DNA from: Betaproteobacteria bacterium
GTDB lineage: Bacteria; Pseudomonadota; Gammaproteobacteria; Burkholderiales; Usitatibacteraceae
Length of the DNA: 18,568 nt
Direction: 5' to 3'
Assembly: GCA_012274175.1 (NCBI GenBank)
Contig: JAAOZZ010000332.1
Location: forward strand, 1 to 18,568
Below are positions 4,450 to 18,568 of this stretch, one piece after another (position 1 is the stretch's first letter; each line of letters opens with the position of its first letter). The notes beneath the pieces are model-generated. The model was not told where the DNA came from, did not search any database, and worked only from the letters and a program-made list of their open reading frames with translations. A program made the position numbers and the translations under genes.

Positions 4450-5334
4450 CTAGCGAGCCGGGTCGAGCCCGTGGTCGCGGTACATGTGCGCGACTTCCTC
4501 GCCCAACATGAATTCAAGCAGGCGCGAGCCCCATTCCCCGCCATCCCCGACCAATGCAATCCCGGTCTTGCCGATTTCCTGGTCGGGATCGCCTTCGTGG
4601 GTAAGAGGCACCAAATCGAACATCCCTGGAAAGATGCGCGTGTAGCGCAGGGCGAGGTGGTGGAACACGACCGCGACGTCGGCACGATCATCGGCAAGGC
4701 ATTGCGGCGCTTCCCTGTGGTGAATGCTTTCGCCGTACACCACTCGGGACGAGGTGCCGGGGATGCGATCCAGGAACCCCATGTCGACACCGATGCGCGC
4801 CCCGACCCGCTGCAGCGTGGTCGCGTAGATCCGATAGCTGACCGACTCCTTTTGGGGATTCGAGAGAAAGAGCCGCACGTCTTCGCGGGCGAGATCGGCG
4901 CAACCGGCAATCCGCAGAGGATTGCCCTTGCGCACCAGCAGGGCGATTCCCCGGCTTGACGCGACGGCTTCGGGGTGGCCTACGGAGCCCTCCGCGTGCA
5001 GGCGCTCGAGGAGAGGGGTGGGCCCGATGAACACGTGCGGCCGGACCGAGAAACATAGTGAGCCCACGGCGAGAAAGCCGGCCTTCATGGCATCCGTCAC
5101 GACGCTGGGCGGCGTGGTGACGTAGAAGATGTCGCCCACTGCCCCATGGCGGCCGCGGAACGCTGCGAGCGCATCCGCGAGCGCCATGTGATGATTGCCA
5201 TCCGAGAAGACGACGAGCCTCGATACCCGCGGGTCGCCATGGAAGTCGAGGCAGATGTTCGATCCGGCTTGCGCGAAGCGGGGAGCGCCCGGAGGAAGCG
5301 GCGTAGCGCCTTCGTAAGGCCAGTCCAGCTGCAT
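4450..5334 (-). CDS. Periplasmic-binding-fold protein without signal peptide (ModA/TupA-like), 294 aa
   Basis: The sequence reads as a type-2 periplasmic binding protein of the molybdate/tungstate (ModA) sort. There is a segment after about residue 60 with A-L-A-A-F and V-G-D-I-F-Y-V-T-T-P-P, a hinge region with A-L-L-V-R-K-G-N-P near 150, and the characteristic R-L-F-L-S-N-P-Q-K-E near 175, which aligns with the S/A-N-P-E stretch of ModA-like proteins. There is no N-terminal hydrophobic stretch, so unlike ordinary ABC binding proteins it should stay in the cytoplasm. The start is supported by AGGAGGG (5343-5349) six bases upstream. No ABC permease or ATPase accompanies it; the next gene is a DASS symporter. 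It could be a cytosolic anion sensor, a regulatory domain, or a gene that lost its signal peptide. Confidence 0.6.
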   Translation of the reverse strand: MQLDWPYEGATPLPPGAPRFAQAGSNICLDFHGDPRVSRLVVFSDGNHHMALADALAAFRGRHGAVGDIFYVTTPPSVVTDAMKAGFLAVGSLCFSVRPHVFIGPTPLLERLHAEGSVGHPEAVASSRGIALLVRKGNPLRIAGCADLAREDVRLFLSNPQKESVSYRIYATTLQRVGARIGVDMGFLDRIPGTSSRVVYGESIHHREAPQCLADDRADVAVVFHHLALRYTRIFPGMFDLVPLTHEGDPDQEIGKTGIALVGDGGEWGSRLLEFMLGEEVAHMYRDHGLDPAR

Positions 5335-10256: not shown

Positions 10257-11075
10257 TCAGGTCTGGCGGTGCCAGCTGTAGCGGGTGATCAGAAGCATGC
10301 AGATGGAATCGAGCGCGAAGCCGATGACGCCGATCACCAGCACCATCGCCGTCAAGTGGTTGTACGAGAGCGTCTCGCGCGCATCCTCGATCGAATAGCC
10401 GAGGCCGGAGGTGACCCCGAGGAACTCCGCGGGCACGAGCACGATCCACGCGACGCCGAGGGCCAGCCGGATCCCGGTGAGGACGTCGAACGCGATCGCC
10501 GGCAGGATGATCTGGGAGAGCATGTGCCAGGGCCGGGCGCCCAAGTTGCGCGACACCTTGAACCACGCCGGATCCACCTTGGCCAGGCCGGCGGCGGTGG
10601 AGAACGCCACCGGCCACACCGCCGCGATCGCGATGAGGAAGATAATCGCCGCGTCCCATTTCGCGAACACGATCACCGCGATAGGCTCCCAGGAAAGCGG
10701 GCTGATCATCCGCAGCAACTGGAACGGCGTGTTGCTCAGCTGCCGGAAGGTCTGGCTGCGGCCCATGAAGATGCCGATCGGGACCCCGCAGGTGATGGCC
10801 AGCAGCAGCCCCATGCCGAGGCGATAGCCGCTGCTTTCGATCGCCCGCAGGATCGTGCCGTCGCCGATCAGTTCCGGGAACGCGCGGAACGTCGGGATGG
10901 GACCGAAGTTCGCGAAGCTGCGCGTCGCCGGGTTGAGGTAGAGCAGCAGGCCCCCGAGCCACCAGAGGCCGAACAGGAGCCCGAGCCCGACCGCGCCGTA
11001 GAACAGCCGTCGCACCGCCGGGGACGACAGGCGGGGAAGCGCGAACAGCCTGGCGGGCGCGACAGCGGCGTTCAT
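10257..11075 (-). CDS. NitT/TauT-type ABC transporter permease, 272 aa
   Basis: An inner-membrane permease of the nitrate/sulfonate/bicarbonate (SsuC/TauC/NrtB) group. It has about six membrane spans and the cytoplasmic EAA-type coupling loop N-L-G-A-R-P-W-H-M-L-S-Q-I-I-L-P-A at about 180-196, where the ATPase docks. The start ATG at 11075 overlaps the stop of the binding-protein gene in the ATGA arrangement, indicating translational coupling. Together with the preceding binding protein and ATPase it forms a complete importer. Thiocyanate is the likely substrate from context; members of this family carry small anions such as nitrate, cyanate, bicarbonate and sulfonates. Substrate not proven by sequence. 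Confidence 0.92.
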   Translation of the reverse strand: MNAAVAPARLFALPRLSSPAVRRLFYGAVGLGLLFGLWWLGGLLLYLNPATRSFANFGPIPTFRAFPELIGDGTILRAIESSGYRLGMGLLLAITCGVPIGIFMGRSQTFRQLSNTPFQLLRMISPLSWEPIAVIVFAKWDAAIIFLIAIAAVWPVAFSTAAGLAKVDPAWFKVSRNLGARPWHMLSQIILPAIAFDVLTGIRLALGVAWIVLVPAEFLGVTSGLGYSIEDARETLSYNHLTAMVLVIGVIGFALDSICMLLITRYSWHRQT

Positions 11076-12400
11076 AGGTCGATGACCTCCACCCGGGTAT
11101 AGGGATCGCCCGACTGGGGAACGCTCGCATCCTTCTTCCACTTGGGATTCTTCTCGAGCGCCTTCTTCACGAAGTCGTAGTTCACCAGGTCCTTGGCCAC
11201 GTGCTCGGGGCTCAGGCCCTCGAGGAACTTCGCGTCCCCGGTAATGACGGTCTTCTTCAGGTCGGTCACGACGAGCTCCGTGGCCGACTGGTAGGGCCAG
11301 CCCTGGAAGTTGATGCGGTCCATGCCCCAGTCCGGATGCTTGATGGCCTCGGGATTCTTGTAGTAGGCGGGGCTGTAGAAGAGCATCGCGCGCTCGACCA
11401 CTTCCTTCGGGAACGGAAGGTAGCCCTTGCCGTCGCGCGAGAGCATCTGCGCCATCGACTGGCGGTTCTCCGCGAGATGGATCTGGGCGGCGATGATGGC
11501 GTTGTGCACGCCCTGTGCCCACGCGGCGCGGGCGGGATCCATGGTGTCGGCCTCGTGCATGACGACCACGCAGCAGGGATGGCCCTTCCAGATGTCGCCC
11601 GTGAACCGCAGCATCTTGCCCCCGGCCTTGAGCTCGCCCAGCGCGTTGAACGGCTCGGCCACGCAATAGGCGTCGATCTTCCCGGCGGCGAGCGCGGGCG
11701 GCATGTCGGGCGGCGCGAGCACGAGGAAGTTGCACTCGTTGGGCGCCAGCTTCGCGGTCTGCGGGCGGATCACCGGGGTGATGCCGGCGTTCCTCAGCTC
11801 GAGCTGGGAGATGATGTTGTGGATCGAGTACCAGAACGGCATCGCGAACTGCTTGCCGCCGAAGTCCTTGAAGGTCTCGATGCCGCTGTTCTTGCCGACC
11901 ACGATGGCCGAGCCGTTGGTGTGGTCCCAGGCGGTGATCTTCACCGGGAACTTGTTGTTGTAGCGCATCCAGATCGGGATCGGGATCAGCAGGTGCGCAA
12001 GGTTGAAGCGATGGGAAGCGAAGGCCTCCACCAGCGGCGACCAGCCGCGGATGAGGGTCGGGCGCACGGAATCGAGACCTTCCTTCTTGAGGAATCCCAT
12101 CTCGTGGGCGACGATCAGCGCGGCCGCGTCGGTGATCGGCAGGTAGCCGATGCGCACCACAGGGTCGAACTTGTCGTCGGCGGCGAAGGAGCGGGAGGCG
12201 GGAATCACGCTTCCCAGCGCGGCGGCACCGGCGGCGTTGAGCAGGCTTCGCCGGCTCACCCCCGTGCCGAGGATCCCGCGGAACATCGGGTCATAGTCCA
12301 GCACGAGCTTCGGATCGACGATCCCGTCTCCCTGGGTCTTGTAGTCGAGCACCGTTTCCTCGAGCCCATCGCCTTGCTTGTCGTTCTCCCGCGTGGTCAT
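11072..12400 (-). CDS. NrtA/SsuA-like ABC substrate-binding protein with Tat signal, 442 aa
   Basis: An extracytoplasmic binding protein for the NitT/TauT importer. Residues 1-48 are an unusually long polar n-region, followed by a twin-arginine motif S-R-R-S-L-L at 49-54, an Ala-rich hydrophobic stretch, and a likely cleavage after A-S-R-S-F-A near 73. The mature protein starts with V-R-I-G-Y-L-P-I-T-D-A-A, typical of the NrtA/CmpA/CynA set, and has W-D-H-T-N-G-S-A-I and P-P-D-M-P-P-A-L-A-A-G-K-I-D-A-Y further on. ATG 12400 is chosen because AGGAGAG lies seven bases upstream; the frame itself stays open further. Tat export suggests folding before secretion. It lies immediately downstream of its ATPase and overlaps the permease by 4 bp. 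Confidence 0.9.
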   Translation of the reverse strand: MTTRENDKQGDGLEETVLDYKTQGDGIVDPKLVLDYDPMFRGILGTGVSRRSLLNAAGAAALGSVIPASRSFAADDKFDPVVRIGYLPITDAAALIVAHEMGFLKKEGLDSVRPTLIRGWSPLVEAFASHRFNLAHLLIPIPIWMRYNNKFPVKITAWDHTNGSAIVVGKNSGIETFKDFGGKQFAMPFWYSIHNIISQLELRNAGITPVIRPQTAKLAPNECNFLVLAPPDMPPALAAGKIDAYCVAEPFNALGELKAGGKMLRFTGDIWKGHPCCVVVMHEADTMDPARAAWAQGVHNAIIAAQIHLAENRQSMAQMLSRDGKGYLPFPKEVVERAMLFYSPAYYKNPEAIKHPDWGMDRINFQGWPYQSATELVVTDLKKTVITGDAKFLEGLSPEHVAKDLVNYDFVKKALEKNPKWKKDASVPQSGDPYTRVEVIDL

Positions 12401-12461
12401 GTCTGGCTCTCCTCTGTTGTGCCCTGCGCGTGGTGCAATCGATGTGTCTGTGTCGTCCCGT

Positions 12462-13334
12462 TCAAGCCCGCGCGGTGCCGAGGGATTCGGCCGCGGACAT
12501 TCCTGTGAATTCGGCGCTGGATCCGTGGTCCGCGTCGTGGGTATCACCGGCTTCGCTGCCGGCCGTGCCCGAGGCGGCGTTGGCCGCGCCCTCGAAGCTC
12601 TTCATGAGCTGCGCGCGCGCGGCCTGCACCGCCGGATCCTGGCGCTCCCGCGGATCCCCGAGGTCGATCGTGATGTCGTGCATGATCCTGCCGGGCGAGC
12701 CCGCCATGATGAGCGCCCGGTCTCCCATGAGCACCGCCTCGTCGATGTCGTGGGTGACGTTGACCAGGTTGATGCCCAGGCGCTTGGCGATGGAGCGCAC
12801 GTCGCGCTGCAGCGATGCGCGCGTAAAGGCGTCCAGCGCGGAGAAGGGCTCGTCCAGGAGCAGCAGCTCCGGCTCCATCACGAGCGAGCGGGCGAGCGCC
12901 ACCCGCTGCTGCTGCCCGCCCGAGAGGTCCTGCACGTTGTTTTCGGCGAAGTCTTCCAGGTCCACCAGGCGCAGCGCCTCGGCGACGCGGTCGCGCATTT
13001 CCGCCTGGGGCCAGTTGGCGAACCGCAATCCGATGCCCACGTTCTGCGCCACGCGCATCCAGGGAAAGAGATGGGGCGCCTGGAACATCATGACCCAGCG
13101 GGGCGACGGTCCCTCGACTGCCTTGCCGTCGAGGGAGACCTTGCCGCTCGTCGGGCGCACGAGGCCCGCCATGATGTGGAGCAAGGTCGATTTGCCGCAG
13201 CCGGAACGGCCGATGATGGCGAGGGCCTCGCCGCTCTGGGCCTCGAGCTTGACGCGATCGAACGTGAGCGCTCCGCGCGAGCTGTAGCGATGGCTGAGGT
13301 CCACGACCTCGATATGGACTCCGCGTATCGGCAT
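12462..13334 (-). CDS. NitT/TauT-type ABC transporter ATP-binding protein, 290 aa
   Basis: A complete ABC ATPase of the SsuB/TauB/NrtD type. Walker A G-R-S-G-C-G-K-S-T is at 42-50, the Q-loop glutamine at 85, the signature L-S-G-G-Q at 137-141, Walker B L-L-L-L-D-E at 157-162, the D-loop S-A-L-D right after, and the switch His at 195. The last roughly 40 residues form an Ala/Gly/Asp/His-rich low-complexity tail (A-A-S-G-T-A-G-S-E-A-G-D-T-H-D-A-D-H-G) not needed for the core, which could be disordered. The start is backed by GAGGAA upstream. The gene lies 123 bp after P15K; the gap holds a strong hairpin. It powers the adjacent permease and binding protein. Confidence 0.93.
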   Translation of the reverse strand: MPIRGVHIEVVDLSHRYSSRGALTFDRVKLEAQSGEALAIIGRSGCGKSTLLHIMAGLVRPTSGKVSLDGKAVEGPSPRWVMMFQAPHLFPWMRVAQNVGIGLRFANWPQAEMRDRVAEALRLVDLEDFAENNVQDLSGGQQQRVALARSLVMEPELLLLDEPFSALDAFTRASLQRDVRSIAKRLGINLVNVTHDIDEAVLMGDRALIMAGSPGRIMHDITIDLGDPRERQDPAVQAARAQLMKSFEGAANAASGTAGSEAGDTHDADHGSSAEFTGMSAAESLGTARA

Positions 13335-13358
13335 CGATCAGTTCCTCGGTCGACAAAT

Positions 13359-13388
13359 ATCCGCGCCGGCCTTCGCCGCGGCGCGGAT
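13359..13388 (-). terminator. Hairpin between P15K and the ABC transporter genes
   Basis: ATCCGCGCC and GGCGCGGAT form a perfect 9-bp outer stem, and GGC/GCC extends it across a two-base bulge around a CTTC loop. On the minus strand the 3' arm is followed by ATTTG, a weak U-run. It could act as a partial terminator or as an RNA-processing or stabilising element, giving more scnBAC-P15K message than transporter message. It is 25 bases before the ATPase start. Confidence 0.45.
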
Positions 13389-13457
13389 GCCGGGCATGCC
13401 GCCAGCCGGCGGGAGAACCTGGTGCTCGCTTCCGCCCAAGGGAGTGTGGATCCTCGC

Positions 13458-13844
13458 CTAGGCGCTGGTGAGGCGCTCGTGGACCTGCCGCATCCGACGC
13501 TCGAGCTCTTCCTCGTCGACCAGGCCGCGGCGGATCATCGTGTGGGCCAGGGCCATGAGCTGGCGCTCCGGCTGGGGAATGTCCCGGTAGAGCGTCTCGG
13601 AGAGATCGTCCTCGGAGGCGCGTCGATCGAGCGTCTCGAGGCAGTCGTGGACCGCGAGCGCCTCGCAGGTCGAGAACATGCTGACCTTCCACGGGGGATC
13701 GGGGTTGGTCACGCCGTATTGGACGGCCAGGTCCTCCCAGGCCCTTCCGCGGCTGCGGATCTTCTCCAGCAGCGTAATGGGGGAGGCGTCCGGGGCCTGC
13801 CGGCTCGCGCCTGCGCCTGCATTCTTCGCGTTCGTGTCGGCCAT
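13458..13844 (-). CDS. Thiocyanate hydrolase accessory protein P15K (nitrile-hydratase-activator-like), 128 aa
   Basis: It resembles the P15K protein encoded next to scnBAC in Thiobacillus thioparus and the small activator/beta-N-terminal-like proteins of nitrile hydratase systems. Hallmarks are F-x2-x-W-E-D-L-A-V-Q-Y-G near 35, W-K-V-S-M-F-S-T-C-E-A-L near 52 and a charged C-terminus E-E-L-E-R-R-M-R-Q-V-H-E-R-L. Such activators help load cobalt into the catalytic subunit and promote cysteine oxidation. ATG 13844 is chosen: its GAGGAA site overlaps the TGA of scnC, 10 bp away, giving coupled translation. An upstream ATG at 13883 would only add Thr residues read from the scnC His-tail DNA and is rejected. 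The Co-loading role is by homology. Confidence 0.87.
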   Translation of the reverse strand: MADTNAKNAGAGASRQAPDASPITLLEKIRSRGRAWEDLAVQYGVTNPDPPWKVSMFSTCEALAVHDCLETLDRRASEDDLSETLYRDIPQPERQLMALAHTMIRRGLVDEEELERRMRQVHERLTSA

Positions 13845-13854
13845 GGCGCGTTCC

Positions 13855-14574
13855 TCAGTGACCGTGGTCGTGGTCGTGGCCATGGTCGTGCTGTATCGGA
13901 TGCACCGCCGGATGGATCGGCCGCTTGTCGTCCTGCTTGCGGTCGGGATGGGGCAGCGCCACGCCGATCATGCAGTCCCGGGTCACGATGGAGGCGAGCT
14001 GCTCTTCGCTCCAGCCGTCGGTCCCGGCGGGACGCATCGGCAGCACCATGAAGCGGCACTTCTGGTTCGAGTCCTCGACGCGGATCTCGACGTCAGCGGG
14101 GAGCTGCAGGCCGAACTCGGCGAGCACCTGCCGTGGCCAGCGCACCAGCCGGCGCCGATAGTTGGGAGTCCGGTACCACTCCGGCGAATGGCCGAGGATC
14201 GGGCGCGGATAGCACGAGCAGAGCGTGCACACGACCACGTGCTTCACCTTGGGTGTGTCCTCGAGGACGCGCAGGTCCGTGTAGTCGCTCGGCGTGCCGA
14301 ATCCGGTCGGGTTCAGCCAGTCGATGCCGACCTCGAGGCTCGCCTTCACTCCATCCTTCAGGGCGAGCTTCTTGAACTCCGGATTCAGCCAGGCCTTGGC
14401 CACGAGGCGCGCCGCGGGCAGCGGCCCGATGCTGTGGGCGAATTCCGTGAATCGCCGGTGGTCGTCGGCGGTGAAGAGTCCCTTCTCGATGGCGAGCTCG
14501 CGAACGGCGGCTTCCAGGATCTCGAAGTCGCTCACCTCGTCGACCATCGGTGCGGCTTTGTGCTTCTCTGCCAT
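13855..14574 (-). CDS. scnC: Thiocyanate hydrolase gamma (catalytic) subunit, 239 aa
   Basis: The cobalt-bearing catalytic subunit, homologous to the alpha subunit of nitrile hydratase. The metal motif V-C-T-L-C-S-C is at 115-121 (Cys116, Cys119, Cys121). Thr rather than Ser in the second position is the Co-type form, and Cys119/Cys121 correspond to the cysteines oxidised to sulfinate and sulfenate in these enzymes. S-P-E-W-Y-R and N-Y-R-R-R-L-V-R-W-P-R-Q follow, as in known ScnC. Reaction: SCN- plus two waters to COS, NH3 and OH-. The C-terminus (221-239) is His/Asp-rich and may hold metal; in T. thioparus I recall a His/Asp run at the N-terminus instead. It lies 37 bp after scnA; AAAGGAAAA precedes the ATG. 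Confidence 0.95.
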   Translation of the reverse strand: MAEKHKAAPMVDEVSDFEILEAAVRELAIEKGLFTADDHRRFTEFAHSIGPLPAARLVAKAWLNPEFKKLALKDGVKASLEVGIDWLNPTGFGTPSDYTDLRVLEDTPKVKHVVVCTLCSCYPRPILGHSPEWYRTPNYRRRLVRWPRQVLAEFGLQLPADVEIRVEDSNQKCRFMVLPMRPAGTDGWSEEQLASIVTRDCMIGVALPHPDRKQDDKRPIHPAVHPIQHDHGHDHDHGH

Positions 14575-14611
14575 GTGCTTTTCCTTTCTGTTCCGTGACC
14601 GTCGCGGCGCG

Positions 14612-14965
14612 CTATGCCTTCTCGAGCCAGCGTTCGGAGAATTCCGTCTGCACCGAGTCGTTCGGATACGCGTCGGGATAGTCGCCCCAAAGATCCTTCT
14701 GCTTGAAGCGCACGATGTAGAACCATTCGGGCTTGTCGGTGTTGTCCCAGGCCTCGTCTTCCGGGGCCGGGCTCTCGTGGGTCACGACGGCGACGGTGCC
14801 CTCCGCGCCGCGGGTATAGACCTGGCAGCGGGTATAGAAGATGTCCGGCAGGTTCTTGATCCGGACGCGTTCGCCCACCTTGAACTTGGCCGGGCCGGCT
14901 TCGCCAGTGAAGCATTGGGGATCGCCTTTCCCCGTGGACTTCTCAGCGTGGTGACTTCTTTTCAT
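14612..14965 (-). CDS. scnA: Thiocyanate hydrolase alpha subunit, 117 aa
   Basis: A small subunit equivalent to the C-terminal part of nitrile hydratase beta. It matches ScnA closely: H-H-A-E-K, G-D-P-Q-C-F near 15-20, F-K-V-G-E-R-V-R-I-K-N-L-P-D near 29-42, F-Y-T-R-x2-x-Y-T-R-G-A-x-G-T near 43-58, E-W-F-Y-I-V-R-F-K-Q-K-D-L-W, and ending E-R-W-L-E-K-A. It is slightly shorter than the roughly 126 residues known in T. thioparus. It makes the heterotrimer core with ScnB and ScnC. The start overlaps the end of scnB by 23 bp, so its ribosome site lies inside scnB and the pair is translationally coupled. Confidence 0.94.
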   Translation of the reverse strand: MKRSHHAEKSTGKGDPQCFTGEAGPAKFKVGERVRIKNLPDIFYTRCQVYTRGAEGTVAVVTHESPAPEDEAWDNTDKPEWFYIVRFKQKDLWGDYPDAYPNDSVQTEFSERWLEKA

Positions 14966-15389
14966 GGCGCTTCCTGACCTCTTCGATCTTGTTGATGAGC
15001 TCGGTGAGCGTGACGTGCTGCTTGTCGACCAGGATCCTCGCGGCCGAGAGCAGCCAGCGCCCGTAGTAGGGCAGGCCCAGGTACTGCGTCTGGCCCAGGT
15101 CGACGTTCTGCCGGCGGCGCCGCTCCTCGGCGTTCCAGATGCCGCGCCAGGCCAGGCACTCGCAGGTCACGTACGTGTTCACCTCCCACTGCTCTTCCTG
15201 CTTCTCCTCCCACCGGATGGGAATGTCCGGCTCGCCGCCCACGTCGTGGGACGTGCGCATGTAGGCCCGGAAGAGGGCGTGATCGATGGCATCGGGGTAG
15301 GGCGCATGTTGCGGCCGATGCAGGGCCGGCTGCAGCTGACCGACAAGGTCGATATGCCGCATTACGCTTTCTCGGCTGGACGACGACAT
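14943..15389 (-). CDS. scnB: Thiocyanate hydrolase beta subunit, 148 aa
   Basis: It corresponds to the N-terminal part of nitrile hydratase beta. Diagnostic stretches are Q-P-A-L-H-R-P-Q-H-A-P near 18, D-V-G-G-E-P-D-I-P near 47, C-E-C-L-A-W-R-G near 77, R-R-R-R-Q-N-V-D-L-G-Q-T-Q-Y-L-G near 90, and P-Y-Y-G-R-W-L-L-S-A-A-R-I-L-V-D-K-Q near 108. Order scnB-scnA-scnC is the one known from Thiobacillus thioparus. ATG 15389 (M-S-S-S-S-R-E) is preferred; AAAGGAG lies 11 bases upstream, a little far. The frame could extend 34 codons to 15491, but that part matches no ScnB. First gene of the unit, read from the promoter shared with cynR. Confidence 0.94.
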   Translation of the reverse strand: MSSSSRESVMRHIDLVGQLQPALHRPQHAPYPDAIDHALFRAYMRTSHDVGGEPDIPIRWEEKQEEQWEVNTYVTCECLAWRGIWNAEERRRRQNVDLGQTQYLGLPYYGRWLLSAARILVDKQHVTLTELINKIEEVRKRHEKKSPR

Positions 15390-15593
15390 GGTCTGGACAA
15401 CTCCTTTCGTGGATTCGAAAAACTTATCCGCATATTCGGGATAGCCATCAACGAGTTGGGCCATTCCCGACACTTCGCGAATCGCTCTCACTTGCGCGGA
15501 TGCAAGTCCGCAAACGTTCGACGTGCAAATTTATGGATTACACGGATAGAATTGTCCAAGACTATATTTCGATGGGTTCGATAGGATTCGGCT
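15390..15593. promoter_or_regulatory. Divergent scnB/cynR control region
   Basis: A 204-bp gap between two divergent starts. It contains a TATATT (15563-15568) that could be a -10 for cynR and, on the other strand, TATAGT (plus-strand 15561-15566) as a -10 towards scnB, with no good -35 in either direction, as expected for an activator-dependent promoter. The LysR-like dyad (15546-15565) and most of the duplicated block (15553-15596) lie here. The 165 nt from the TATAGT element to scnB is a long leader. Confidence 0.55.
15546..15565. promoter_or_regulatory. Candidate CynR (LysR-type) operator
   Basis: ATAGAATTGTCCAAGACTAT is an interrupted dyad, ATAG-nn-TTG-nn-CAA-nn-CTAT, with 14 of 20 positions symmetrical. 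It contains the T-N11-A form of LysR-type recognition sites and overlaps the -10 elements in both directions. Its position between a LysR-type gene and the divergent target is the classic LTTR arrangement. The right half recurs upstream of cynS, the left half does not. Assignment to CynR is inference. Confidence 0.45.
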
Positions 15594-15596
15594 ATG
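15553..15596 (+). repeat. Duplicated promoter block, copy A (cynR start/scnB promoter)
   Basis: These 44 bases, running from TGTCCAA through ACTATATTTCGATGG and CGATAGGA to GGCTATG, align without gaps to 17152-17195 with 38 identities. In this copy the final ATG is the cynR start codon. Within it, CGATGG and CGATAG occur nine bases apart. Read on the minus strand, the block presents TATAGT towards scnB. Confidence 0.85.
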
Positions 15597-16604
15597 GCGC
15601 AGCGCATCACCTTTCCCCGTTCCCTGCGATACCTGCTCGCCGTCGCCGAGCACGGCAGTTTCACGCGGGCGGCCGAAACGCTGTTCGTCTCCCAGCCCAC
15701 GCTTTCGCAGCAAATCAAGCAACTGGAGGAGCTGCTCGACGTGCAGCTGCTCGACCGCTCGGGGCGGACGGTGCGCCTCACGGAGGCGGGCGAGCTCTAC
15801 CTGCGACACGCCCGCCGCGCACTGCAGGAGCTGGACGCGGGCAAGCGCGCCGTCCACGAGCTGCAGGACCTGAGCCGGGGCTGCCTGCGCCTGGGCATCA
15901 CGCCCATCACGGAGTACATGACGACGCCGCTCCTTCACCTGTTCAATACCCGCTTCCCGGGCATCACGGTGAACGCCCAGGAAATGGCCCAGACGGACAT
16001 CGAGGCAGGAGTGGCGGACGACCACATCGACGTGGGCATCGCGTTCACCAATACGCTTTCCACGGACGCGCGCTCGAGCGAGATCGACACCCACGTGCTT
16101 TTCATCGAGCCGCTCAACCTGGCGGTGGGCGAGGGTCATCGGTTTGCAGGGCAGAACGCTCCCGTGGGCAAGCGCGAGCTGGAAAAGGAGTCGCTCGTGC
16201 TCCTCAACACGAACTTCGCGCTGCGCCGGCACTTCGACCTGTATTGCCTGGAGCACGGCATCACGCCGCAGATCGGCATGGAGACCAACTCCGTGAACGT
16301 GATCGTGGAGATCGTGCGGCTGGGCAAGCTCGCCACGATCCTGCCCGACACCATCGCGTGCTCGCAGCGGGGCCTGCACCCGGTGATGCTGCTCCCGGAG
16401 CTGCCGCACCACTCGATCACGCTCATCTGCCGCAAGGGGACGTACAAGAGCCCGGCGTGCCAGGCGTTCGGGGAGCTCGCGATGGAGTGGAGCACGAGCC
16501 GATGCCTGGTATCGGCCGAAAGGACGCGGCCCTGCGCCATGGCCGAGGTATGCAATCGGCAGGCGCCCCAGGAGCAACCGCAAGCTGCGGTTCCCGGAGA
16601 CTGA
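15594..16604 (+). CDS. cynR: LysR-family regulator CynR, 336 aa
   Basis: A full LysR-type activator. The N-terminal HTH (F-L/L-A-V-A-E-H-G-S-F-T-R-A-A-E-T-L, S-Q-P-T-L-S-Q-Q-I-K-Q-L-E) spans about 12-50, then the linker helix D-R-S-G-R-T-V-R-L-T-E-A-G-E and a two-lobed effector domain to about 300. Similarity to E. coli CynR, the cyanate-responsive activator of cynTSX, is high throughout (R-A-L-Q-E-L-x-A-G-K-R-A, D-V-G-I-A-F). It is about 35 residues longer than the roughly 300-residue family norm: the C-terminal tail (303-336) has three cysteines (304, 314, 320) and a Gln/Pro-rich end. It is divergent from scnB and convergent with cynS; in E. coli cynR is divergent from cynTSX. TAGGA is nine bases before ATG. 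Confidence 0.9.
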   Translation: MAQRITFPRSLRYLLAVAEHGSFTRAAETLFVSQPTLSQQIKQLEELLDVQLLDRSGRTVRLTEAGELYLRHARRALQELDAGKRAVHELQDLSRGCLRLGITPITEYMTTPLLHLFNTRFPGITVNAQEMAQTDIEAGVADDHIDVGIAFTNTLSTDARSSEIDTHVLFIEPLNLAVGEGHRFAGQNAPVGKRELEKESLVLLNTNFALRRHFDLYCLEHGITPQIGMETNSVNVIVEIVRLGKLATILPDTIACSQRGLHPVMLLPELPHHSITLICRKGTYKSPACQAFGELAMEWSTSRCLVSAERTRPCAMAEVCNRQAPQEQPQAAVPGD

Positions 16605-16611
16605 TTCCCCC

Positions 16612-16643
16612 GGGGCCCGCACTACGGCCGCGCCGGGCGCCCC
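16612..16643. terminator. Hairpin between convergent cynR and cynS
   Basis: GGGGCCCG (16612-16619) and CGGGCGCCCC (16634-16643) pair with a two-base bulge, filling the 40-bp space between the two convergent stop codons. GC-rich and symmetrical, it could end transcription from either side, although there is no T-run. Likely a bidirectional terminator. Confidence 0.45.
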
Positions 16644-16644
16644 G

Positions 16645-17085
16645 TCACCAGGACTTGTAGGGCAGGAACTTGCCGTTCAGCGTGAGCACCACGCGCACGC
16701 CCTTGGGATCGTCCTGCTTGCCGATGTCCATCGAGAAGTCGATCGCACTCATGATGCCGTCACCGAAGTTCTCGTGGATCACTTCCTTGATGGTCTCGCC
16801 GTACACGCCGACCATCTCGTAGAGGCGGTAGATCACCGGGTCCGTGGGAACGACCTGGCTCCAGGTCTTGTGGGGGAATTGCTGCAGCGCCGTGGAGACC
16901 TGCTTGCCCAGGCCCAGCACCTTGGCCACCCCGTCGGCCTGCTTCTTGTCCATGTGGTTCATGCCGAGGCAGGCCGAGCAGGTGTACTCGACGGAAAGCC
17001 CCGCGGCCTTGGCGATGTCCTTCCACTTGAGGCCCTTGTCGAGCTTGGCTTCGAGGATCGCTTCCTTCATCGCGGCTTTGTTCAT
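16645..17085 (-). CDS. cynS: Cyanase (cyanate hydratase), 146 aa
   Basis: It decomposes cyanate with bicarbonate to ammonia and CO2 (via carbamate). The catalytic triad of the family is intact: Arg87 and Glu90 in Y-R-L-Y-E-M, and Ser113 in D-G-I-M-S-A-I-D-F, corresponding to Arg96, Glu99 and Ser122 of the E. coli enzyme. The N-terminal helical domain (L-K-W-K-D-I-A-K-A-A-G-L-S, about 19-31) and the C-terminal L-N-G-K-F-L-P-Y-K-S-W are typical. It is ten residues shorter than E. coli CynS. ATG 17085 has only a weak GGGCGA site. No cynT (carbonic anhydrase) or cynX accompanies it. Its promoter region carries copy B of the block found at cynR/scnB, implying shared control with thiocyanate hydrolase. 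Confidence 0.96.
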   Translation of the reverse strand: MNKAAMKEAILEAKLDKGLKWKDIAKAAGLSVEYTCSACLGMNHMDKKQADGVAKVLGLGKQVSTALQQFPHKTWSQVVPTDPVIYRLYEMVGVYGETIKEVIHENFGDGIMSAIDFSMDIGKQDDPKGVRVVLTLNGKFLPYKSW

Positions 17086-17151
17086 GTGCGTCGCCCATTC
17101 GAGTTGAAGACGGATGTATCGACTCGGGAATATGTTCGGTCGACTCGCGGC

Positions 17152-17195
17152 TGTCCAACACTATATTTCGATGGAAGCGATAGGAGTTGGCTATG
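17152..17195 (+). repeat. Duplicated promoter block, copy B (cynS promoter, relic cynR start)
   Basis: Ungapped counterpart of 15553-15596 (38 of 44 identical), including the GGCTATG that is the cynR start in copy A. Here the ATG opens no convincing gene: the frame runs antisense through the STAS-like gene and does not resemble CynR. On the minus strand TATAGT (plus 17160-17165) points at cynS, giving a leader of about 68 nt. It sits within the 158-bp gap between cynS and the STAS-like gene, and is the only structured element seen in that gap. Confidence 0.85.
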
Positions 17196-17243
17196 CACCG
17201 CGGGCGGGCGGCGACAGCCAAATTCGCATGGAAGGCATTTACT

Positions 17244-17609
17244 TCACGTGGCCTTCAGCCAGCCCAGCGCCTTTACGTCTTCGGAAAAGGGAAAGTGCCG
17301 CACTTCGGCCGACGTAAAGTGCCTGCCGAGCGCTTCCGCAATGCCGGCGACCTGACTGTCCGTCACGACCGCCACGCGGTCGATCCTCTTGTGGTGGTCG
17401 CGGACGAAGTGCATGTGCGCGGTGAATCCCCCGAAGCTCTCCCAGCCGGGAAATCCTTTCGAATGGATCAGCACGCCATGGAGCATGGCGTGGTCGGAGA
17501 GATAGGAATCGACCGCCGCGCCCAGGCCATCGAAGTCCTCCTTGCTTAAGGGTGCGCGCGGCTTGAGCACCAGGATGCCTTCGGGCTTCATGATCGAATA
17601 GTCGAGCAT
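17244..17609 (-). CDS. SpoIIAA-like (STAS/SEC14-type) domain protein, 121 aa
   Basis: A short cytoplasmic protein that looks like the SpoIIAA-like family (DUF3478). It has an N-terminal strand pair (I-L-V-L-K-P-R-A-P-L-S-K-E-D-F), then V-L-I-H-S-K-G-F-P-G-W-E-S-F-G-G-F near 47-62, R-D-H-H-K-R-I-D-R-V-A-V-V-T-D near 69-83, and a C-terminal F-P-F-S-E-D-V-K-A-L-G-W. Members are widespread in proteobacteria and bind small lipophilic ligands or act as STAS-like adaptors; none has a firm role. ATG 17609 is fixed by AAGGAG seven bases upstream; the extra upstream residues in frame lack a ribosome site. It precedes cynS in the same direction but 158 bp apart, with a cynS promoter between, so it is probably a separate unit. 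Confidence 0.75.
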   Translation of the reverse strand: MLDYSIMKPEGILVLKPRAPLSKEDFDGLGAAVDSYLSDHAMLHGVLIHSKGFPGWESFGGFTAHMHFVRDHHKRIDRVAVVTDSQVAGIAEALGRHFTSAEVRHFPFSEDVKALGWLKAT

Positions 17610-17816
17610 GGGATTCTCCTTGAGTGAGCCCATCAACATAGGACACCGGGCGTGGCTGGTCTGTTCGCCAGCGAGCTGATGGGGCCACTGCCAGGGCGGC
17701 GTGCAGACGAAAAGGCTGCGGTCGGGCGAACTCGAGCGAGGTGAATTGAGCCACGTACGCCAAGGGGAAACGTACTGGAGCTAGCTACGTCTTGGCTGCG
17801 GTGAGGTCGGAAGAAG

Positions 17817-17840
17817 GACCTAGCTTCGAGCTAAGTCTTT
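17817..17840 (-). terminator. Terminator hairpin just downstream of the tRNA-Asn 3' end
   Basis: On the minus strand GACTTAGCT-CGA-AGCTAGGTC forms a 9-bp stem with one G-U pair and a three-base loop, 8 bases after the CCA of the tRNA-Asn fragment, followed by pyrimidine-rich CTTCTTCC. It looks like the original terminator of the tRNA gene, which would mean the DNA to its left is the native downstream flank of that tRNA. The rest of 17640-17816 holds nothing I can name. Confidence 0.6.
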
Positions 17841-17848
17841 GAGGCATT

Positions 17849-17899
17849 TGGCTCCCCGACCTGGGCTCGAACCAGGGACCTGCTGATTAACAGTCCGTC
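17849..17899 (-). tRNA. 3' part of tRNA-Asn (GTT), truncated: probable attachment site
   Basis: Read on the minus strand this is GACGGACTGTTAATC, a variable region, the T-arm CCTGG-TTCGAGC-CCAGG, the acceptor 3' side TCGGGGA and GCCA. The anticodon loop CTGTTAA gives GTT, asparagine. The 5' half is missing: past 17899 the sequence does not form a D-arm or the 5' acceptor strand TCCCCGA. A tRNA 3' end next to an integrase gene is the usual footprint of site-specific integration, so this is annotated as a partial tRNA serving as att. It is not a functional tRNA gene. Confidence 0.8.
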
Positions 17900-17909
17900 T
17901 TTCCTTGTC

Positions 17910-17929
17910 AACCGGTGTCCAAGCCGGTT
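17910..17929. repeat. Inverted repeat at the element end
   Basis: AACCGG-tgtccaag-CCGGTT is a perfect 6-bp dyad with an 8-base centre, 10 bp inside the element from the tRNA fragment. The position suits an integrase or excisionase recognition site, but this is inferred from location only. Confidence 0.35.
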
Positions 17930-18008
17930 AATGGCTGTCTCGTAACCCCTTGTATTTCCTATTGCATCGTAAACCGAGGTTTGCTATTGTCTCCGGCAGT
18001 CGTGCCGA

Positions 18009-18030
18009 TACTGCAACGGTACTGCAACGG
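18009..18030 (+). repeat. Two tandem 11-bp direct repeats upstream of the integrase
   Basis: TACTGCAACGG occurs twice back to back, 47 bp before the integrase start. Short direct repeats between att and int are often arm-type sites for the integrase and may also overlap its promoter. Role inferred from position. Confidence 0.55.
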
Positions 18031-18077
18031 AAATGCGGCGCGACCGACCTGCGGACTAGACGAAAGCGAGGGCGGCG

Positions 18078-18568
18078 ATGGGGATTTCGGATGCAGAACT
18101 GCGGGGCAGATGGCACGGTGCGGACCGATGGGTTTCCGATGGCGGCTCGCGCGGAGCGGGGCGCCTCGTCGCGAAGATGGCGCAAGCGGGTGTCACGTTC
18201 TACTTCGCGCACTTCGACAGCGCGGGCGCTCGGCGCTTCCTCCCGATAGGCGACTACGACCAGACAGGGAAGCGCGGCATGACGCTGCGGACCGCACGCG
18301 ACCGCACGGCCGAGGTGTCGATCCTCTACCGCAGCGGCGTGCGCGACCTTCATGCGCACTTCGAGGAGCAGCGCGCAGCGCAGGAGCGGGCCCGCGAGAG
18401 GGCCGCCCAGGCGGCGCGAGAGGTGGAGCTGCAGACGGAGCAGACCAGTTTGCGGAAACTCCTCGACGCCTACGTGGCGCACCTCGAGCGCAACAAGAAG
18501 CAATCCGCCGGCGACGTGCGCCGGATGTTCGCGAAGTACGTCTACAAGGTGGACGCGGACCTCGCGGC
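18078..18568 (+). CDS. Tyrosine-type integrase, N-terminal part (runs off the window)
   Basis: Open for 163 codons to the window end. The N-terminus (M-G-I-S-D-A-E-L) leads into a DUF4102-like arm-binding region: V-T-F-Y-F-A-H-F-D-S-A-G-A-R-R-F-L-P-I-G-D-Y near 39-60, then T-L-R-T-A-R-D-R-T-A-E-V-S and L-Y-R-S-G-V-R-D-L near 70-93. A charged Ala/Glu/Arg coiled-coil linker follows (about 95-125), then the start of a core-binding domain (L-L-D-A-Y-V-A-H-L-E-R-N-K-K near 129-142). The catalytic R-H-x-x-R and Tyr lie beyond the window. An in-frame TAG at 18057-18059 excludes a longer start, and GAGGGCGG precedes ATG 18078. It points away from the tRNA-Asn fragment, so the mobile element should extend to the right. 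Confidence 0.82.
   Translation, partial: MGISDAELRGRWHGADRWVSDGGSRGAGRLVAKMAQAGVTFYFAHFDSAGARRFLPIGDYDQTGKRGMTLRTARDRTAEVSILYRSGVRDLHAHFEEQRAAQERARERAAQAAREVELQTEQTSLRKLLDAYVAHLERNKKQSAGDVRRMFAKYVYKVDADLA

Follow-up and report, generated by a model that had tools for sequence, protein, structure and literature searches.

Genes and repeated blocks at the scn–cyn locus

The window analyzed here is a stretch of 18,568 nucleotides covering positions 1 to 18,568 of contig JAAOZZ010000332.1 (assembly GCA_012274175.1), from a betaproteobacterium of the family Usitatibacteraceae. Its right-hand part holds a LysR-type regulator gene, cynR (15594..16604, plus strand), flanked on both sides by minus-strand genes: the thiocyanate hydrolase subunit gene scnB on the left (14943..15389) and the cyanase gene cynS on the right (16645..17085). 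The subject of this analysis is a short block of DNA that occurs twice at this locus, once between scnB and cynR (block A, 15553-15596) and once upstream of cynS (block B, 17152-17195), each facing its target on the minus strand. It is highly probable, judging from sequence and comparative evidence, that the two blocks are binding sites and promoter fronts of one local regulator, CynR.

The regulator is assigned to CynR by NCBIfam model NF008416 (375.3 bits, cut-off 277); it shares 46% identity over 291 residues with E. coli CynR, and the N-terminal DNA-binding region is closely similar. Cyanase is recognized by TIGR00673 (161.6 bits, cut-off 113.3). The operon to the left of block A is identified as a thiocyanate hydrolase operon through scnC (13855..14574, minus strand), which encodes the catalytic gamma subunit and scores 391.7 bits against TIGR03887, above the curated cut-off of 291.45. 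The product of scnB is nitrile hydratase beta-like, falls below the model cut-off and was named by position and homology. The true start of scnB is probably the ATG at 15389 rather than the GTG at 15491, because the alignment of most homologues begins only around residues 32-42 of the longer frame; the frame as listed, starting at 15491, is thus probably 34 residues too long at its beginning.

The two blocks align without gaps at 38/44 identical bases (86%), their starts lie 1599 bp apart, and the longest exact run common to both is 15 nt; the alignment and a direct-repeat listing agree here with the initial annotation of this DNA. Within 12000-18568 the pair is the longest direct repeat listed. 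A 24-base core pattern allowing up to 3 mismatches matched only blocks A and B in the 3.14 Mb assembly and never in reversed form, and a looser 20-base pattern, again with up to 3 mismatches, also returned these two alone; the assembly is 80.56% complete, and further copies could be missing from it. On its plus strand, block A carries an AGGA (Shine-Dalgarno-like) and the ATG of cynR. Block B lies 69 nt before cynS.

The putative operator motif and its recurrence in relatives

To define the block as a motif, relatives were assembled from one genome-contig scan (18 loci) and from genome searches, later extended to longer stretches. Seven entries were dropped as copies of the window (L001, L002, L021, L025-L027 and L037), the short loci L022-L024, L028-L036 and L038 were exchanged for longer stretches, and L072 was dropped as a duplicate of L020, leaving 34 loci, the window among them. 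In these, a loose regular expression written for the block matched 42 places, against 1 in the reversed sequence. The motif model was built from 40 of these 42 places (L003:3946 and L070:3477 were left out), and no locus was scored by a model containing that locus or its near-identical kin. Under this leave-one-out scheme, 57 sites reach at least 20 bits in 29 of the 34 loci (the five without one are L071, L077, L080, L081 and L082), whereas the reversed sequence holds none above 8 bits. Among the 57 is L070:3477, which scores 28.9 bits from outside the model. Block A scores 54.1 bits and block B, which was not among the seeds, 44.5 bits, as compared with a maximum of 5.7 bits for the full model in 3 Mb of first-order Markov null sequence. 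In the E. coli cynR-cynT region, likewise outside the model, one place scores 24.4 bits in the same register, and it includes the published R1 ATAAGTAAA.

The motif recurs at the counterparts of the genes it faces in the window. A site within 450 nt faces each of the 28 scnB genes that show at least 65% identity and have at least 350 nt of upstream sequence, and 26 of 29 cynR genes have a site of at least 20 bits. The three cynR exceptions are L070 (16.9 bits), L078 (11.6 bits, with a spacing one base shorter) and L079, where no site is in range. The distance from the T of TCCAAG to the cynR ATG is exactly 39 bases in 23 of the 26, which makes the start codon overlap the CTAT half-site; CTAT is kept in L012 and L014 with the ATG lost at that place, and in L069 the ATG is shifted. 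The idea that the repeat is a functionless product of chance or low complexity has the shortness of the block as its sole argument, and its probability is negligible in the face of this recurrence and of scores so far above the null. The initial annotation had taken the block for a CynR-type promoter or operator facing scnB and cynS, and the motif, together with its alignment across relatives, bears this out at the level of sequence.

At cyanase genes the picture is more varied. Sites are found indirectly linked to cynS in several relatives: in L078 a weaker site of 11.6 bits is common to cynR and cynS, in L018, L019 and L075 cynS stands behind another gene carrying the site, and in L003-L007 and L020 it stands behind cynR on the same strand. 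Two counts from this set weigh against the reading of the block as an operator of both pathways, namely that a site of at least 20 bits lies directly before cynS in only 3 of 20 cynS rows (the window, L012 and L074) and that 7 of the 20 have no site at all. A third point of the same kind concerns the co-occurrence with scn. When 369 genomes sampled from the class were searched with the pattern, allowing up to 2 mismatches, it matched in 10/10 genomes with scnC and in 3/359 others, the reversed control giving 0; all ten scn genomes had supplied sites to the motif, and only the rarity in the 359 others is independent. The scn-free genomes with a match are G161, G273 and G380, the last of which looks like chance by eye.

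A wider regulon covering loci with cynS alone was considered and rejected. Such loci number 31 (L039-L066 and L080-L082), and a site is present in only two of them, L050 and L059, both from scn genomes (G385 and G350); among the 29 site-free loci some also come from scn genomes (L045, L048, L061, L080 and L081). Within 61 genomes (the window's own and 60 relatives), a strict block pattern was found in the own genome only.

Anatomy of the putative operator and predicted promoters

Read towards scnB or cynS, both copies have the order ATAG-N7-CTAT, which is a T-N11-A box of the LysR-type transcriptional regulator (LTTR) kind, followed by 21 bp and TTGGAC. The LTTR box of block A (IR1, 15581..15595) reads ATAG-GATTCGG-CTAT on the plus strand and is overlapped by the cynR ATG; that of block B (17180..17194) reads ATAG-GAGTTGG-CTAT on the plus strand and holds the supposed relic of a start codon discussed below. 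A 15-bp inverted repeat of the type ATAR-N7-YTAT is thus present at both, and the gene adjoining the site encodes a regulator that the curated model places in CynR. In E. coli, CynR inverted repeats ATAA-N7-TTAT are given at -66, -44 and -34 (Lamblin and Fuchs, as cited in the excerpted text of PMC5002191). The arrangement here resembles that system in its LysR-type CynR, its divergent cynR and an ATAA/ATAG-N7-TTAT/CTAT box, which the predicted promoters would place at about -65, close to the -66 of E. coli. It differs in its targets, which are thiocyanate hydrolase and a separate cynS, in its ATAG/CTAT half-sites, in a strongly conserved TTGGA, and in the cynR ATG, which overlaps a half-site here and begins 9 bp after it in E. 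coli. The box also fits the general LTTR form (T-N11-A; CTATA-N9-TATAG in the same excerpt), although here it belongs to an extended 41-bp block with a fixed 20-bp spacing to TCCAAG. Around -44 and -34 the region is conserved as a block, and no clean dyad was seen there by eye, no dedicated test having been made.

The conserved TTGGAC is read as the -35 element, and TATAGT not as the -10, because of the layout of the E. coli CynR promoter. For scnB the predicted -35 lies at 15554..15559 (minus strand) and the predicted -10, CATAAA, at 15530..15535 (minus strand), 18 bp further on, with transcription expected to start at about 15523; for cynS the corresponding elements would be TTGGAC at 17153..17158 and CATATT at 17129..17134 (both minus strand, again 18 bp apart; 3.4 bits for the hexamer), with a start at about 17122. 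If the scnB promoter is correctly predicted, the center of the LTTR box falls at about -65. The assignment draws on the enrichment of -10-like hexamers, defined as those above 2 bits by E. coli -10 weights, downstream of the conserved TTGGAN. Such hexamers occur 18 bp after TTGGAN in 29/57 sites and 17 bp after it in 14/57, while the other offsets from 8 to 39 give 1 to 9 of 57, except offset 23 with 14/57. Once near-identical loci are removed, offset 18 alone is prominent (24/46); the count is 9 at each of offsets 17, 20 and 23 and between 0 and 6 at all others.

This promoter assignment is opposed at three points. A spacing of 17 is not prominent after pruning, its 9/46 being equaled at 20 and 23; the predicted scnB -10 is weak, at only 1.55 bits; and the place occupied by TATAGT is itself -10-like, above 2 bits, in 27/57 sites. 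In the layout of the initial annotation, TATAGT would be the -10 and the CGATGG/CGATAG pair an activator site. TATAGT is indeed present in both window copies, although in no other of the 57 sites, and the 27/57 at its place come close to the 29/57 found 18 bp after TTGGAN. With TATAGT as the -10, however, the center of the LTTR box would sit at about -34 (a position that, like -65, depends on predicted starts), against the -66 reported for E. coli in that excerpt. E. coli itself has ATGAGA at the TATAGT place, which is not -10-like, and TAGTCT (2.3 bits) 18 bp after the -35 position, the register being counted by hand. Moreover, the AT-rich AGTC stretch belongs to the conserved operator block, where likeness to a -10 can be incidental. 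A role of TATAGT as the -10 is disfavored, and the alternative layout as a whole is unlikely.

The shared start codon and the question of duplication

Both copies contain GGCTATG, which in block A supplies the cynR start codon. The initial annotation argued that an operator evolving independently would not conserve a start codon and that a DNA duplication is likely. The CTAT of this heptamer is, however, the second half of the LTTR box. Thirty sites, copy B among them, are not beside a cynR start; of the other 29, 26 have CTAT or TTAT at this position, and GGCTATG in copy B needs no duplication because the half-site is conserved at these 26 of 29 sites as well. The same 29 sites show TATG in 10 cases, with the near-identical L010 and L011 both counted. 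Three of the 10 (L016:8754, L010:2040 and L011:2276) continue with GGAT and could be relics themselves. When the 400 bases following each of the 30 sites were searched with CynR, no half-site proved to be the beginning of a cynR. The retained start codon is thus ruled out as proof of duplication by the conservation of the half-site elsewhere.

The site L016:8754, an scnB site without an adjoining cynR, is followed by ATGGATCGA, which resembles the beginning of a cynR gene, although the search of its next 400 bases was empty. By its sequence, this site is more plausible as a true relic than copy B of the window is.

A duplication may still be considered on other grounds, with copy B as the relic of a duplicated cynR-plus-promoter unit divergent from cynS, whose cynR was later lost while selection kept the operator half. 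The proposal that cynR was once divergent from cynS has counterparts among the relatives, since this order is intact in L078 and broken in L012. The latter has the closest CynS found (79% identical), a site 70 nt before cynS as compared with 69 nt in the window, and a broken cynR fragment at 4941-5200 (two frames, with stops) between cynS and an intact cynR and divergent from cynS. Blocks A and B also tie for the highest identity (38/44) of 42 within-locus pairs. At the 18 low-information positions, A and B have the same base in 13 cases, against 6.8 (SD 2.0) expected from the column frequencies, an excess that operator constraint alone leaves unexplained. The same degree of agreement is matched by 31 of 1554 between-locus pairs, near-identical loci included. 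Copying could lie behind the excess, and so could a tuning of both sites to one CynR.

The surroundings of the blocks speak against duplication. Similarity beyond the functional element is absent, with 3/20 and 4/20 bases identical in the adjoining flanks, which is background, and with p values of 0.35 and 0.48 for local alignment of the 300-base flanks against shuffled sequence; the flanks being unrelated, the similarity of A and B ends at the block borders. Where cynR is duplicated elsewhere (L013, intact; L012, decayed), 15/20 and 13/20 bases are common on the cynR side, versus 4/20 at A and B. A search for a cynR remnant next to copy B gave no credible match; the best tblastn hit of CynR in 17196-17960 had E 0.021 in a two-sequence database. 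Furthermore, A and B match the cynS-side site of L012 at 28/44 and 27/44 bases, where the average between-locus pair has 26.9. With the start-codon argument void, we regard an origin by duplication as a real but doubtful possibility, and the two blocks more probably as operators held alike by function.

Recombination between the blocks offers another explanation, in which gene conversion keeps A and B alike or the blocks flank a cassette that can be deleted. The high identity at variable positions would fit gene conversion. RecA recombination in E. coli usually needs 20-odd bp, a length that the exact run of 15 nt does not attain, and outside the functional block the two copies are no longer alike. 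This explanation is very unlikely, and deletion of a cynR-cynS cassette by homologous recombination, suggested by the initial annotation, is unlikely because only a 15 nt run is exact.

Neighboring genes and genomic context

The thiocyanate hydrolase operon continues leftwards from scnB on the minus strand. The gene scnA (14612..14965), encoding a subunit that corresponds to the C-terminal part of nitrile hydratase beta, scores below the model cut-off and takes its name from its position and its homology to scn loci. Beyond scnC, the remaining operon (10257..13883) encodes a nitrile hydratase beta-N-like protein, an ABC ATPase, a substrate-binding protein and a permease; the complete order from scnB to the permease is found in 12/18 loci of the genome-contig scan. 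The thiocyanate hydrolase loci of Thiobacillus thioparus and Thioalkalivibrio thiocyanodenitrificans (PMC5328954) likewise have scn, cyanase and cobalt uptake genes nearby, and the available portion of that article describes no regulator or operator for the scn genes.

To the right of block B, a SpoIIAA-like protein (PF11964) is encoded on the minus strand at 17247-17639, and the motif scan gives it no CynR site of its own. Further on, positions 17853-17905 look by eye like the 3' half of a minus-strand tRNA-Asn, preceding an integrase-like frame that starts at about 18080. ARAGORN found no complete tRNA, and Pfam gave no match in 18080-18568; the stretch is a possible attachment site of an island. 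Among the 61 genomes, scnB is present in 3, the own genome included, and absent from the five sampled of the same genus, and in a phylum sample scnC was found in the own genome only (1/398). Given the rarity of scnB in the family, the scn cluster may have been acquired horizontally, or the contig may be mis-binned.

Proposed mechanism and regulon

Taken as operators of CynR, the blocks are a real and very probably functional feature of an ordinary kind, two operators of one LysR regulator. Site A would drive scnB and the thiocyanate hydrolase/ABC operon leftwards while covering the ribosome-binding site and start codon of cynR, and site B would drive cynS. We infer that a CynR dimer binds ATAG-N7-CTAT at about -65 and that a second dimer occupies the less conserved stretch by the TTGGAC -35; effector-bound CynR would then touch RNA polymerase and switch both operons on. 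The effector is cyanate in E. coli and may be cyanate, thiocyanate or both here. Occupancy of site A by CynR would also limit cynR itself. On this mechanism the near-identity of A and B would reflect function, and GGCTATG in copy B would be an operator half-site.

In relatives, sites also lie before other gene types, which suggests, from their sequence context, a CynR regulon. By Pfam assignment these include CbiM-like cobalt uptake (L018, L019 and L070), HupE/UreJ (L075) and a NicO nickel/cobalt transporter in L016, 464 nt from the cynR-side site; a formate/nitrite transporter (L010 and L078) and an Alginate_exp-type porin (L075) are among the possible targets, while a porin-like protein in L006 has no Pfam match. 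Cobalt uptake fits such a regulon because thiocyanate hydrolase is a cobalt enzyme (PMC6504805). The new element is a predicted CynR regulon that includes thiocyanate hydrolase and cobalt uptake.

Also by Pfam, an Fe-S protein with CCG domains stands behind a CynR-type site in four cases (L019:5739, L016:2076, L075:15802 and L070:3477). It is a target without an obvious link to cyanate or thiocyanate.

The literature search, which left most subscription journals outside its range, found nothing that combines "thiocyanate hydrolase" and "cynR", and among the matches listed, judged by title and the start of the abstract, none describes a CynR site or another regulator of scn. How thiocyanate hydrolase, an enzyme of potential use in the treatment of mine waste water, is switched on is not described in the literature searched. 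A common CynR operator would provide a precise and testable answer for the control of scn, together with a list of further targets. According to PMC12096828, thiocyanate raises expression of cynT in E. coli, and the consulted part of that paper leaves open whether CynR sees thiocyanate or contaminating cyanate; the sites described here bear on that question of whether CynR recognizes thiocyanate itself or traces of cyanate. They also advise caution in genome reading, as a start codon may be conserved because it lies inside an operator. What makes the locus interesting is that thiocyanate hydrolase would join the predicted CynR regulon, and that the regulator's own start codon lies within an operator. 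Tentatively, and as a serious possibility rather than an expectation, CynR may be the master switch of thiocyanate use in beta- and gammaproteobacteria, sensing thiocyanate and cyanate. Besides thiocyanate hydrolase and cyanase, its regulon would then cover cobalt uptake, a porin and a formate/nitrite-type channel, and the operator at the cynR start codon would hold cynR itself in check.

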